Positions 53,219-57,547 of a stretch of DNA of 64,000 nt are shown piece after piece. Within the stretch, counting starts at the first letter, position 1; each line of letters begins with the position of its first letter. The notes below the pieces were generated by a model. The model saw only the letters and a list, made by a program, of their open reading frames with translations. It did no database searches and was not told where the DNA came from. Source of the DNA: Lacrimispora xylanolytica (GTDB lineage: Bacteria; Bacillota; Clostridia; Lachnospirales; Lachnospiraceae); NCBI RefSeq assembly GCF_026723765.1, contig NZ_CP113524.1:2713001-2777000 (forward strand). The letters run 5' to 3'. Made by a program: the position numbers and the translations under genes.

Positions 53219-53575
53219 TTAACTCTTCATCTTCGGCTTAAATATGACAGAGCCAAGATATCCAAAAATCAATGCACCTGATATGCCTACTGCGCTGGCA
53301 GTAAATCCGCCTTTAAATATTCCAAGGAACCCATCTTCCCCCATGCTCTTCCATACGCCCTTCCAAAGGCTGTTACCAAAGCCAAGAAGTGGAACCGTGG
53401 CTCCGGCTCCTGCCCATTCTGCAAAGGGCTGGTAAATTCCTATGGCACCTAATATACTTCCGGTGACCACCAGGAGCACCATAATGCGCCCAGGCATAAG
53501 TTTCGTGTTGTCCATCAAAATCTGAATCAGTGCACAGATCAGACCCCCTACAACAAATGCTTTCACGTAGTCCAT
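53219..53575 (-). CDS. spoVAE: Stage V sporulation protein AE
   Basis: A 118-residue membrane protein with three or four helices, part of the SpoVA channel that moves dipicolinic acid into the forespore and out on germination. It begins MDYVKAFVVGGLICALIQIL and has VTGSILGAIGIYQPFAEWAGAGATVPLLGFGNSL; this is the SpoVAC/AE (SpoVAEb) signature. GGAGAA lies before the ATG. It is the last gene of the spoVA operon; SpoVAEa and SpoVAF found in Bacillus are not present here. Confidence 0.95.
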   Translation of the reverse strand: MDYVKAFVVGGLICALIQILMDNTKLMPGRIMVLLVVTGSILGAIGIYQPFAEWAGAGATVPLLGFGNSLWKGVWKSMGEDGFLGIFKGGFTASAVGISGALIFGYLGSVIFKPKMKS

Positions 53576-53598: not shown

Positions 53599-54615
53599 TT
53601 AGCTGCCTATATGCTCTATTACCACACCGTGTGCAATTCCTGGAATCGACTCTCCCTCATTGAAGCTGACCGTGGATAAAAGTGCGCCGGTGGGTACAAA
53701 TAAAACCCGCTTCCACTCTCCGCTGTGCACCTTGGGAAGAATGTAGGAGCACAGTGTGGAAGCTGCACAGCCGCAGCCGCTTCCTCCATTATGAGTATCC
53801 TGAGTTTCACTGTCAAAAATCTCAATTCCACAATCCGTATGAACGCTTTCCAGATTATGGCCTTTATTTTTCATGAAATCCAGTAAAATGGTTCGTCCAA
53901 CGCTTCCTAAATCTCCTGTTATTATCTTATCATAGTAGGACTCATCTACATTAAAATCTTCAAAGTTCTGCTGGATGGTATGAAAGGCCGAAGGTGCCAT
54001 GGCAGCTCCCATATTCATGGAGTCTTTAATGCCCATATCCACCATACGACCGGTTGTAATTCCTGATATTGCTGCGATGCCTTCATTTTTATTTTTTCCA
54101 AGAATCACAGAACCACAGCCCGTTACGGTCCATGAAGATGAAAATGGTCTCTGATTTCCATAGCTTAATGGAAAACGAAACTGTTTTTCCGCCGTAGCAA
54201 AATGACTGGAGGCCATAGCCATAACTTTATCTGCAAAGCCACCTGCAACCGCCATGGCTCCTAGATTTAACGCCTCTCCCATGGTGGAACAGGCACCGAA
54301 CAAACCAAACAACGGAATCTCAAGATCTACGGTTCCAAATGAGGTTGCAATCAGCTGTCCCAGCAAATCTCCGGCAAACAGATAACGTATATCCTTTCTT
54401 CTTATATCTCTTTTTTCAATGGCCAGATCAGCTGTCTGCTTCTGGAGCGCACTTTCTGCTTTTTCCCAGGTATCGGCTCCAAACATATCATCCTGCTCTA
54501 CCATATCAAACAATTTACCAAGGGGACCATCCCCTTCCTTTTTGCCTACAATGGAAGCCATGCTTTCAATGATCGGCGGTTCCTCAAATTTGATACTTGC
54601 TTTTCCTAGCTGCAT
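53599..54615 (-). CDS. spoVAD: Stage V sporulation protein AD
   Basis: A 338-residue soluble protein of the thiolase-like fold that binds dipicolinic acid in the SpoVA complex. Hallmarks are FEEPPIIESMASIVGKKEGDGPLG, FGACSTMGEALNLGAMAVAG, NQRPFSSSWTVTGCGSVIL and HNGGSGCGCAASTL. The start is the ATG at 54615 with GGAGAG upstream; an in-frame start 15 codons earlier has no ribosome site. It lies 31 bases downstream of spoVAC and 23 bases before spoVAE. Confidence 0.96.
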   Translation of the reverse strand: MQLGKASIKFEEPPIIESMASIVGKKEGDGPLGKLFDMVEQDDMFGADTWEKAESALQKQTADLAIEKRDIRRKDIRYLFAGDLLGQLIATSFGTVDLEIPLFGLFGACSTMGEALNLGAMAVAGGFADKVMAMASSHFATAEKQFRFPLSYGNQRPFSSSWTVTGCGSVILGKNKNEGIAAISGITTGRMVDMGIKDSMNMGAAMAPSAFHTIQQNFEDFNVDESYYDKIITGDLGSVGRTILLDFMKNKGHNLESVHTDCGIEIFDSETQDTHNGGSGCGCAASTLCSYILPKVHSGEWKRVLFVPTGALLSTVSFNEGESIPGIAHGVVIEHIGS

Positions 54616-54646
54616 ATTCTCTCTCCATTTCTCTGATTGTTCATTC

Positions 54647-55099
54647 CTACAGTATGCCAAAAGCCTTTAATACATAGGCGATGACTCCAAGAATCCAGGA
54701 GCTTAAAATCCCATATAAAATAACAGGTCCGGCTATGGTGAAAATCTTACAGCCAATACCAAATATCTGTCCTTCTGACTTAAACTCAACGGCAGGTGCT
54801 ACCACTGAATTAGCAAAGCCTGTAATTGGCACCAATGCACCAGCTCCTCCGAATTTTACAATTTTGGGATAAATATTAAAACCGGTCAAAATCACACTGG
54901 CTGCAATCAATAGTAAGGTAGTCCATGCGGAAGCAGCCTCTTTCTCCAGCCCTCCGTTCATAAACATGTTTGTACTGAACTGACCGATGGTACAGATGAT
55001 TCCTCCCACCAGAAAAGCTTTTACGATGTTTGGCCACTTTTTATTTACTGGCGTTACTTCTTTTACATAAGCTTCATAAGCTTTTTTGTTAATTTCCAT
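54647..55099 (-). CDS. spoVAC: Stage V sporulation protein AC
   Basis: A 150-residue membrane protein that forms the mechanosensitive pore of the SpoVA channel in Bacillus. Four helices; IVKAFLVGGIICTIGQFSTN and YPKIVKFGGAGALVPITGFANSVV are the family motifs, related to SpoVAE. The start is the ATG at 55099, with GGAGG five bases upstream; the frame opens 18 codons earlier without a site. It lies 31 bases after spoVAB. Confidence 0.96.
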   Translation of the reverse strand: MEINKKAYEAYVKEVTPVNKKWPNIVKAFLVGGIICTIGQFSTNMFMNGGLEKEAASAWTTLLLIAASVILTGFNIYPKIVKFGGAGALVPITGFANSVVAPAVEFKSEGQIFGIGCKIFTIAGPVILYGILSSWILGVIAYVLKAFGIL

Positions 55100-55130
55100 T
55101 TTTTCCTCCATTCTGTATGATCGTTCCCGT

Positions 55131-55559
55131 TTATTTTCCGAACCGTTCGGCAAAAAATACTAGAGACCCTAGCAGCTTGCCGATTCCTATGGAAAGAATA
55201 ATGTACTGCAAGCCTACTCCAAGATTAATTCTTCGGCAAAAAATAGGCAGCGCCTTTAATGTTTCTGCTAAAGACATGACTAAACACCCTATGAAAACGC
55301 CTACGGATAAACCGTAGATTCCCAGCACCAGATTTCCTCCATAACCGATCGGAAATTTATAAAGATCCAGGACATTTCCAGTGATTCCGCCTAAAATAAT
55401 GCATGTTTCAAAAAGAATAATGTGATTACTTGTCTTCGTTGCACTGATAATTCTGGGAAATATTCCAATCATTACCAAAAATGCAAAAACGCCGGCTGCG
55501 ATAATGCCGCCAGCGCTTAACCCGATCAGACAAAGAAATACTTCATTAAGAGATATCAA
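55131..55559 (-). CDS. spoVAB: Stage V sporulation protein AB
   Basis: A 142-residue protein with four membrane helices, matching SpoVAB: AGGIIAAGVFAFLVMIGIFPR and FPIGYGGNLVLGIYGLSVGVFIGCL. I chose a TTG start at 55559, with AAGGAG seven bases upstream; an ATG seven codons earlier has no ribosome site. The start overlaps the end of spoVAA by 14 bases. Its biochemical role within the SpoVA complex is unknown. Confidence 0.9.
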   Translation of the reverse strand: MISLNEVFLCLIGLSAGGIIAAGVFAFLVMIGIFPRIISATKTSNHIILFETCIILGGITGNVLDLYKFPIGYGGNLVLGIYGLSVGVFIGCLVMSLAETLKALPIFCRRINLGVGLQYIILSIGIGKLLGSLVFFAERFGK

Positions 55560-56172
55560 TGTCCTGCTCCTTTCTTCCATCGTTCTGGATTAAGGTTTTG
55601 CTGACGTTGTCCTCGTAAAGCCGCATTTCAACCTCTATAGGTGTCGGATCGGAAGTAATCTTAAACTTTGCAAAATGATTAAAAAAGCCTATAATTCCAA
55701 GGGCCAGACCTACAGAATAGCTGACTTCCAGTATTGTAAATCCACTGGACTCCTTCCTCATAATGATTTGATAGATTTCCTTAAAAACATCTCCTACGCT
55801 GACGTCATTGTTAAATGTCATAATTGCAAATGAAGCTCCACAAAAGGAAATAATGCATACTACAATGGTTTTAATCCATTGCCAGACCCAGTTGGGCTTT
55901 TTCTTTTTGTGGTAATCAATGATGTAATTAACTTCTCCCACATTATTTACAGAGATAGAAGGATCCATCTCCACCAGCTTTTTGATAACGTCAAGAGTGC
56001 TTTCAATATAACGTTCATTCTTATCCAGGTGAATGGTCTTAATGCGCAGAGCTTTGCATTTATTCATAACAGCCGTATCATCACAGTAAACATCTGCTAC
56101 GTCCTTTAACTGGATCTCCTTATGATGAACCTCTGTGATCTCGCTGATATTTAAGTAAACGGTTTTGCTCAT
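55546..56172 (-). CDS. spoVAA: Stage V sporulation protein AA
   Basis: A 208-residue protein: an N-terminal soluble domain (about residues 1-92, beginning MSKTVYLNISEITEVHHKEI) and two membrane helices (PNWVWQWIKTIVVCIISFCG and the EVSYSVGLALGIIGFFNHFA region), ending in a conserved short tail around PTPIEVEMRLYED. The ATG overlaps the stop of the upstream 53-residue gene as ATGA, so it is translationally coupled to it. Confidence 0.93.
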   Translation of the reverse strand: MSKTVYLNISEITEVHHKEIQLKDVADVYCDDTAVMNKCKALRIKTIHLDKNERYIESTLDVIKKLVEMDPSISVNNVGEVNYIIDYHKKKKPNWVWQWIKTIVVCIISFCGASFAIMTFNNDVSVGDVFKEIYQIIMRKESSGFTILEVSYSVGLALGIIGFFNHFAKFKITSDPTPIEVEMRLYEDNVSKTLIQNDGRKEQDIDIS

Positions 56173-56330
56173 AACATCATCATCCCCAATCCTGGAAATG
56201 CCTTTACAAGAGTACCTTCCTTTTCAAGCCCATCCGGCATAACTGCAATCATATACCAGATAGCAACCGCAATTGCAATCAGGCACAAAACAAGTAACGC
56301 CATGACCAGCTTATGTTTTACGGATTCCAT
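56169..56330 (-). CDS. 53-residue membrane protein heading the spoVA operon
   Basis: A gene I read directly: it starts MESVKHKLVMALLVLCLIAI and ends VKAFPGLGMMML, with one membrane helix (about residues 8-31) and a short outer tail. Its ATGA stop overlaps the spoVAA start. AAAGGATGTGAG lies upstream of the ATG, and a sigma-G/F-like promoter lies about 36-65 bases upstream. It is therefore predicted to be the first gene of the forespore spoVA transcript. No gene of this position is part of the Bacillus spoVA operon as I know it. It may help SpoVA assembly; this is inference from position. Confidence 0.75.
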   Translation of the reverse strand: MESVKHKLVMALLVLCLIAIAVAIWYMIAVMPDGLEKEGTLVKAFPGLGMMML

Positions 56331-56365
56331 ACGTGCTCACATCCTTTTCTCTGGTTTTTCATGTT

Positions 56366-56395
56366 TAGTATGAGCCGTAGGATTTTTTTTATTCT
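56366..56395 (-). promoter_or_regulatory. Sigma-G (or sigma-F) promoter of the spoVA operon
   Basis: Minus strand AGAATA (56390-56395), a 17-base spacer and CATACTA (56366-56372). The Bacillus forespore consensus is TGAATA-N17/18-CATACTA; the -10 is perfect and the -35 matches five of six. The -35 overlaps the sigF stop codon. Confidence 0.75.
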
Positions 56396-57107
56396 ATAAT
56401 TTTTCTCGCATTTGCTTTAAAATCTTTTTTTCCAGTCTTGAAACCTGAACCTGGGAAATGCCAAGTTTTGTCGCGATTTGACTTTGTGTTTCATTGTAAT
56501 AATAGCGTCTGATGATGATCTCTCTGTCTTTATCCGAAAGCTGAGAAAGCAGATCCCGAAGCACCATGCGATTTAAAAGTTCTTCCTGGGCTGAGCTTTC
56601 CTCTTCGATCTTATCAATGAGCAAAATGCTGTTTTCATCATTTTTATTGACAGAACGGTATAGAGACTCTACCTCTGCTCCTGCTTCAATGGAGGCCGCA
56701 ACTTCTTCTTTACTGGCCCCGATTTCTCCGGCGATCTCCTCCACCGTAGGTTCTCTTCCAAAACGAAATATGAGTTCTTCCCGGACGCGCTTTACCTTAA
56801 GAGCCGTTTCCTTGATGGAACGGCTGACCTTTATGATTCCATCGTCTCTTAAAAAACGTTTGATTTCACCTGTTATCATAGGCACTGCGTACGTAGAGAA
56901 TTTTACATCATAGGATAAATCGAACTTATCAATTGCTTTCATCAGTCCGATAGATCCAATTTGAAATAAATCCTCTGGTTCGTAGCCGCGCCCCGTAAAT
57001 CTGCGCACAATACTCCAGATCAAGCCGAAATTGTCGGTTACAAGCTGATCTCTTGCCGCTTTATCTCCTTCGTGAGCCATTTCTATCAATCTCATGGTCT
57101 CATCCAT
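56394..57107 (-). CDS. sigF: Forespore RNA polymerase sigma factor F
   Basis: A 237-residue sigma-70 family factor, the first forespore sigma. Region 2 has NFGLIWSIVRRFTGRGYEPEDLFQIGSIGLMKAIDKFD and STYAVPMITGEIKRFLRDDG; region 4 has YYYNETQSQIATKLGISQVQVSRLEKKIL. The GTG at 57116 overlaps the spoIIAB stop; the ATG three codons further is preceded by GGGTGA at five bases, which I prefer. Either way translation is coupled to spoIIAB, the anti-sigma factor. A separate promoter at its 3' end serves spoVA. Confidence 0.95.
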   Translation of the reverse strand: MDETMRLIEMAHEGDKAARDQLVTDNFGLIWSIVRRFTGRGYEPEDLFQIGSIGLMKAIDKFDLSYDVKFSTYAVPMITGEIKRFLRDDGIIKVSRSIKETALKVKRVREELIFRFGREPTVEEIAGEIGASKEEVAASIEAGAEVESLYRSVNKNDENSILLIDKIEEESSAQEELLNRMVLRDLLSQLSDKDREIIIRRYYYNETQSQIATKLGISQVQVSRLEKKILKQMREKL

Positions 57108-57112
57108 AAGGC

Positions 57113-57547
57113 TCACCCGCTGATCTTCTTTTTCATGGTCACGGCAGTTCCTTCTCCTGGCGCCGATAGTACCTCCACCTGATCCATAAATGCTTCCATG
57201 AAGGAAAATCCCATTCCTGAGCGTTCTCCATCCGGATCCGTGGTATACATCGGCTCCATTGCCTGCTTAATATCTGGTATCCCTACCCCTGTGTCCCGGA
57301 TAGTGATAGAGATTTCCTGATCAATAACCGCTACCTCCAGGTAGATGATTCCTCCTTCTCCCCGATATCCATGAATGACTGCATTGGTAACTGCCTCCGA
57401 CACGGCTGTTTTCACATCATCCACCTCTTCCAGAGTCGGATTGAGTCTTGCCATAAAGACTACAACTGCGACTCTGGCAAACTCCTCATTTTTCGATAAG
57501 GCTTCTAATTCCATTTTTAGAATTTCTGGTTTATTCTGTTCAGACAT
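57113..57547 (-). CDS. spoIIAB: Anti-sigma F factor SpoIIAB
   Basis: A 144-residue GHKL-type kinase that binds sigma F and phosphorylates SpoIIAA. ATP-binding motifs: the Asn in AVTNAVIHGY, DTGVGIPDIKQAMEPMYTT, and GMGFSFMEAFMD. GAGGAGG lies before the ATG at 57547; the frame extends 14 codons upstream over the spoIIAA end without a site. Middle gene of spoIIAA-spoIIAB-sigF. Confidence 0.97.
   Translation of the reverse strand: MSEQNKPEILKMELEALSKNEEFARVAVVVFMARLNPTLEEVDDVKTAVSEAVTNAVIHGYRGEGGIIYLEVAVIDQEISITIRDTGVGIPDIKQAMEPMYTTDPDGERSGMGFSFMEAFMDQVEVLSAPGEGTAVTMKKKISG

Follow-up and report, generated by a model that had tools for sequence, protein, structure and literature searches.

An additional small membrane-protein gene at the head of a clostridial spoVA operon, probably encoding a helper of the dipicolinic-acid channel

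The locus described herein raises the question of whether a clostridial spoVA operon contains a gene that has so far not been recognized, and if so, what its product does. The Bacillus spoVA operon is described as having seven genes, spoVAA-AB-AC-AD-AEb-AEa-AF, with spoVAA at the start of the list (PMC11841064; PMC5156672). In the first-pass annotation of this DNA, the Bacillus operon was taken to start at that gene. In the window, namely the whole stretch of 64,000 nucleotides of Lacrimispora xylanolytica DNA that was analysed, the order on the minus strand is an anti-sigma ATPase gene, which is spoIIAB by its position and HATPase domain, followed by sigF, a short open reading frame (ORF) designated X in the present study, spoVAA, spoVAB, spoVAC, spoVAD and spoVAEb. 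A short gene with one membrane helix, ATGA-coupled to spoVAA, had been claimed to lie between sigF and spoVAA, and X is found at this place, where its TGA stop shares bases with the spoVAA start codon ATG. The features of the locus, all on the minus strand, are as follows.

56394..57116, minus strand: sigF (TIGR02885 above the cut-off)
56390..56395, minus strand: -35 box AGAATA, separated from the -10 box by a 17-nt spacer and sharing two bases with the sigF stop codon
56366..56372, minus strand: forespore-type -10 box CATACTA
56336..56347, minus strand: ribosome-binding site region of X, AAAGGATGTGAG
56169..56330, minus strand: X, the ORF between sigF and spoVAA, 53 codons plus a TGA stop, with an ATG start
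56247..56309, minus strand: single membrane helix of X, approximately residues 8-28 (AlphaFold2 helix 2-30, hydropathy)
56205..56216, minus strand: conserved tail motif G-T-L-V of X, residues 39-42 (comparison with relatives)
55546..56172, minus strand: spoVAA (PF12164 above the cut-off)
55131..55580, minus strand: spoVAB (PF13782 above the cut-off)
54647..55153, minus strand: spoVAC, exact start uncertain (PF03862 above the cut-off; TIGR02838 at 155.6 bits, cut-off 164)
53599..54660, minus strand: spoVAD, exact start uncertain (PF07451 above the cut-off, TIGR02845)
53219..53575, minus strand: spoVAEb (PF03862 above the cut-off, TIGR02839)

Downstream of spoVAEb, no AEa or AF ORF is present in the window, the next long ORF being on the opposite strand. 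Regarding the product of spoVAA, the N-terminal domain of its model matched PDB entry 3g74 (E 1.7e-10, target TM 0.94), followed by a weak match to flagellar FlgA (E 0.13). Entry 3g74, which represents an Eubacterium ventriosum protein to which no function was assigned on deposition, is probably a SpoVAA domain.

Where database sources give X a name, it is that of a hypothetical or uncharacterized protein. No family in Pfam or NCBIfam covers it (no Pfam match over the cut-off and no NCBIfam match), and a comparison of 62 X members with both collections returned scattered matches, with no family in more than two members and a lone value of 2.8e-5 as the best. A fold search with the X model gave no matches, and no description of X was found in the literature searched, a body that excludes most subscription journals and all preprints.

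All 24 genomes of the genus, the window's genome included, have X at the corresponding position, 69-100% identical over the matched part and free of internal stops, and its own stop overlaps the spoVAA start in every case. Over the first 46 codons, dN/dS had a median of 0.063 and a maximum of 0.167 (254 pairs with dS >0.1), and the variable sites at codon positions 1, 2 and 3 numbered 14, 8 and 36, respectively. X is a real gene under purifying selection. The first-pass annotation had named an unconserved frame or a dN/dS near one as grounds for abandoning its proposal, and neither was observed.

Beyond the genus, a genus-level X profile gave weak matches in the family, and 13 of these loci were inspected. 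In 11 of the 13, the ORF lies directly before spoVAA, mostly with a G-T-[LF]-V-like motif after the helix, and we rejected the notion of a genus-only gene on this basis; the weak matches at L025 and L030 were dismissed as chance. In the family, 107 of 160 genomes gave a match to PF12164, as did 14 of 196 in the class, and 120 spoVAA loci were read, which correspond to 119 distinct ones because L109 is from the same genome as L173 and was counted twice. At the head of 66 of the 120 stands a one-helix ORF in which the helix is followed, 8-15 residues on, by the motif G-[TV]-[LF]-V, according to a pattern that was broad and chosen after the sequences had been seen. Seven further loci showed the helix only, among which L100, L116 and L130 look like divergent X members from their sequences, while L123 and L161 carry an X that was missed by the length filter and recovered by a later whole-genome profile search; by our own reading, X is absent at 48 of the 119 distinct loci. 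When the gap between sigF and spoVAA was at least 150 nt, a helix plus motif was detected in 51 of 59, versus 0 of 1180 dinucleotide shuffles. The length of this gap was 180-541 nt with X, and 35-153 nt in 17 of 21 loci without it.

The whole-genome profile search covered 46 genomes that have spoVAA and seemingly lack X, and 22 of them were matched at E 0.0005; two of the 22 were identified as X adjoining spoVAA (G052 and G060), and the other matches fall in frames of 91-883 codons. On the SpoVAA tree, the presence of X changed at least 18 times, with eight changes forced by well supported branches, and none of 500 shuffles was as low. This tree has 110 rows, L109 and rows without a full-length ATG-starting SpoVAA being left out, and its labels treat L100, L116 and L130 as X, though the script found the helix only, and L123 and L161 as not X. 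Among 19 further spoVAA loci at the phylum level, five (L205, L213, L215, L216 and L217) have a short one-helix ORF with a looser motif, the end of which overlaps spoVAA by 7-8 nt, and the other 14, probable Bacilli among them, have no X.

A broader profile applied to the class at E 0.02 matched 179 of 196 genomes, mostly through unrelated membrane segments, and nine short-ORF matches were read in context. In eight of the nine, which come from class genomes without PF12164, X directly precedes spoVAC-spoVAD (L269, L270, L271, L272, L278, L279, L282 and L286), with motifs such as SRGTYV and SRGVFV. Therefore, X is not limited to Lachnospiraceae-type spoVAA loci, a point on which the first-pass annotation needs correction. 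A match to spoVAC was obtained in 148 genomes and 110 loci were read, one per genome; three were unparsed and eight had spoVAB upstream, leaving 99, in which X was present in 23 and absent in 76 by eye, while a stricter script pattern on the same 99 gave 13 X and 21 helix-only loci. Upstream sigF was found in 32 of the 99, with a gap of at least 250 nt in 19; helix plus motif was detected in 17 of these 19 gaps versus 1 of 950 shuffles, using a pattern that differed from that for spoVAA loci and was broad, but applied equally to the shuffles. The script found no X in the 13 shorter gaps (33-195 nt). The profiles of spoVAA-type and spoVAC-type X aligned over the helix and motif with a probability of 96.9%, and X with a clear motif was recognized by eye under 16 family codes of the class. 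Considering this patchy presence (the 48 of 119 spoVAA loci and approximately 76 of 99 spoVAC loci without spoVAB ahead that lack it), X is dispensable in many lineages.

At five spoVAC-type loci (L269, L271, L278, L282 and L286), a GC-rich inverted repeat, with a C-rich arm and a GCGGGG arm, followed by a T run, was seen by eye to end directly at the X start codon; the repeat is terminator- or attenuator-like, although the C-rich arm could be made out in only some of the five stretches. At L341 (NRAKLV) and L385 (NKAVYV), X lies approximately 400-550 nt from spoVAC, with no obvious spoVA gene between.

As X follows sigF in the window, whether it belongs with sigF or with spoVA needs to be considered. 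Among the 45 loci for which no upstream sigF was found, X was present at spoVAA in 14 (31%), versus 52 of 75 with sigF (69%). When the sigF locus was examined in these 14 genomes and in G191, a helix plus motif ORF lay within 450 nt in 0 of 15 cases, and, hence, X is independent of sigF in the 14 genomes. The idea of a sigF-linked gene was set back by the presence of X at spoVAA without upstream sigF; however, X is rarer there, and one locus (L273, genome G372) points in the opposite direction, with an X-like ORF after sigF, neither spoVAA nor spoVAC near, and spoVAC approximately 296 kb away. A place within the spoVA cluster is indicated by the ATGA overlap with spoVAA and by the recurrent adjacency of X to spoVAA or spoVAC. 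In L226 (genome G171), X-spoVAA-spoVAB-spoVAC stand together on one strand, between sigF and an opposite-strand spoVAD-spoVAEb.

Regarding the protein, AlphaFold2 predicts one helix at residues 2-30 with high confidence (pLDDT block means of 97 and 93 for residues 11-30) and a tail of low confidence (pLDDT 50-59). The number of K/R residues was higher in the N-terminal flank of 37 of 66 X proteins and in the C-terminal flank of 11, and equal in 18, which suggests that the N-terminus is inside, on the core side. The motif starts 8-15 residues past the helix in 54 of the 56 X proteins that were measured, and its positions are mainly G/A, T/V, L/F/Y and V/I in 87 of 92 proteins.

The boxes AGAATA-N17-CATACTA, reported upstream of the small gene in the first-pass annotation, are present with a spacer of 17, and neither box varies among the 24 genomes of the genus, in which the spacer is 17 or 18. 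A small part of the conservation of AGAATA may be due to sigF coding, because the box and the sigF stop codon have two bases in common. A CATA[ACT]TA box was found within 140 nt upstream of 37 of 66 X genes (mononucleotide shuffles, 4.8%), the strict -10 box being absent upstream of the remaining 29. The box was also present upstream of 19 of 54 spoVAA genes without X. A GNATA-like element lies 17-18 nt above the -10 box in a box-aligned set of 53 promoters, while 28 mostly spoVAC-type X genes had the strict box in three cases, a looser box in 13 and none in 12. In Clostridioides difficile, the consensus sequences of sigma-F and sigma-G were described as closely alike and as closely resembling their B. 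subtilis counterparts, with spoVAC listed under sigma-G (PMC3789822), and in another paper the spoVAC promoter was found to be closer to the sigma-F consensus (PMC7438776). The forespore expression of X is likely; with respect to the earlier claim of a sigma-G/F promoter, forespore-type boxes are conserved throughout the genus, and sequence alone cannot tell sigma-F from sigma-G.

Because X is encoded first in the spoVA operon and its relatives occur at the same place in many Clostridia, it is probably an unrecognized helper of the DPA channel. The first-pass annotation had proposed a small SpoVA partner made in the forespore, and position and selection lend support to this proposal, with the partner role itself deduced from position. 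More specifically, we consider it somewhat more probable than its contrary that X is a single-span accessory subunit of the channel with a conserved tail outside the membrane. The gene, its selection, its promoter boxes and its recurrent place are established, and we infer the time of its expression, its location, its binding and its effect on DPA as follows. In Clostridia, the spoVA transcript would begin with X, which would be expressed in the forespore from the sigma-F/G-type promoter that follows sigF, its translation being joined to that of the spoVA gene behind it. The product would sit in the forespore inner membrane by one helix, with the N-terminus in the core and a tail of 20-30 residues outside, as the charges suggest. 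The helix may pack against the SpoVA membrane subunits, and the G-[TV]-[LF]-V segment, which would lie immediately beyond the membrane, may contact the outer face of these subunits and thereby stabilize or gate the channel, X staying with whichever spoVA gene comes first. A more detailed version, in which the helix packs with SpoVAC/SpoVAEb, the outer mouth is shut or clamped by the G-x-[LF]-V tail in the manner proposed for the SpoVA2 protein NJ2, and the arrangement is old, spanning lineages with and without SpoVAA/AB, is offered tentatively and may well be wrong.

The accessory-subunit reading is weakened by the patchy presence of X, its lower frequency without sigF, L273, the frequent lack of the strict box, the absence of a fold match and the inflation of the profile score by the helix part. 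Two rivals deserve most attention, namely a membrane protein of the forespore with a different task and a cis-acting leader ORF. X as a forespore inner-membrane protein with a role in sporulation or germination that is separate from the SpoVA channel, with which it merely shares a promoter, would account for its patchiness among spoVA loci, its rarity without upstream sigF and its occurrence after sigF at L273 with no spoVA genes nearby; we regard this as rather unlikely because X adjoins spoVAA at the 14 loci without upstream sigF, is found at none of the sigF loci of the same genomes, and precedes spoVAC where SpoVAA is absent. A narrower partnership, in which X serves SpoVAA/SpoVAB rather than the channel core, is in accordance with L230 and L222, where X-spoVAA-spoVAB remain together while spoVAC is convergent (L230) or 3.4 kb away; this was set back by the spoVAC-type loci, at which X precedes spoVAC-spoVAD in genomes without PF12164, and has little to recommend it.

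The translation of X may instead set that of the first spoVA gene, with the protein itself having little function, a model that may involve the nascent-chain sensing of membrane insertion, as in MifM. X is the gene nearest the promoter, whether spoVAA or spoVAC follows it, and a 4-nt stop-start overlap with spoVAA occurs in 23 of 66 loci broadly and in 24 of 24 in the genus; moreover, ribosome sites matching at least five bases were slightly less common at spoVAA starts with X (28 of 66) than at those without (31 of 54), and were found at 55 of 66 starts of X itself. Such a leader is nevertheless distinctly unlikely, given the dN/dS of 0.063 over the first 46 codons. The distance from the motif to the stop varies from 0 to 39 residues (median 11), rather than being fixed as expected of an arrest motif, and, relative to the start of the following gene, X ends anywhere from 112 nt ahead to 41 nt beyond (66 spoVAA-type loci), which suits neither arrest nor strict coupling. 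As for a chance ORF without a protein product, which would be in keeping with the short length of X and its lack of a named family, conservation and selection, the shuffles and the recurrence of X make this barely conceivable, and it was rejected.

What is new in the present study is a spoVA operon with an extra, unrecognized small-protein gene, the relatives of which extend more widely beyond the genus than was proposed. The building and closure of the SpoVA DPA channel represent an open question that has been studied mostly in Bacillus, and X provides a direct target for its investigation. If X is a subunit, some clostridial operons lacking SpoVAA/AB encode more than a three-gene core, and a protein annotated as hypothetical is a component of the spores of Lachnospiraceae in the gut.

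The window operon is similar to the Bacillus spoVA operon in its place after sigF, its forespore-type promoter and its spoVAA-AB-AC-AD-AEb order, and differs from it in having X first and no AEa/AF ORF after spoVAEb. Single-span small subunits of approximately 30-60 residues, such as KdpF, CydX and AcrZ, several of which are encoded with their complex, resemble X in its small size and one helix, a likeness by description, whereas X also carries a motif that is conserved beyond its helix. Leader peptides of the MifM type have an N-terminal helix, and their ORF lies directly before a membrane protein gene; X departs from them in its variable motif-to-stop distance and in being under purifying selection. 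A comparison closer to the channel itself is offered by NJ2, the fourth protein of the SpoVA2 system, which co-purifies with or binds the channel and is predicted to form an outer-face cap (PMC13059800). NJ2 is a YhcN/YlaJ lipoprotein, whereas X is a one-helix protein. PF09580, the family of NJ2, was matched neither by X nor by its 61 aligned relatives (E 0.01), and it had no match in the window's genome. Nevertheless, X is, like NJ2, an extra protein encoded with the channel, and the outer-face position that is predicted for NJ2 is the one that the tail of X may share.
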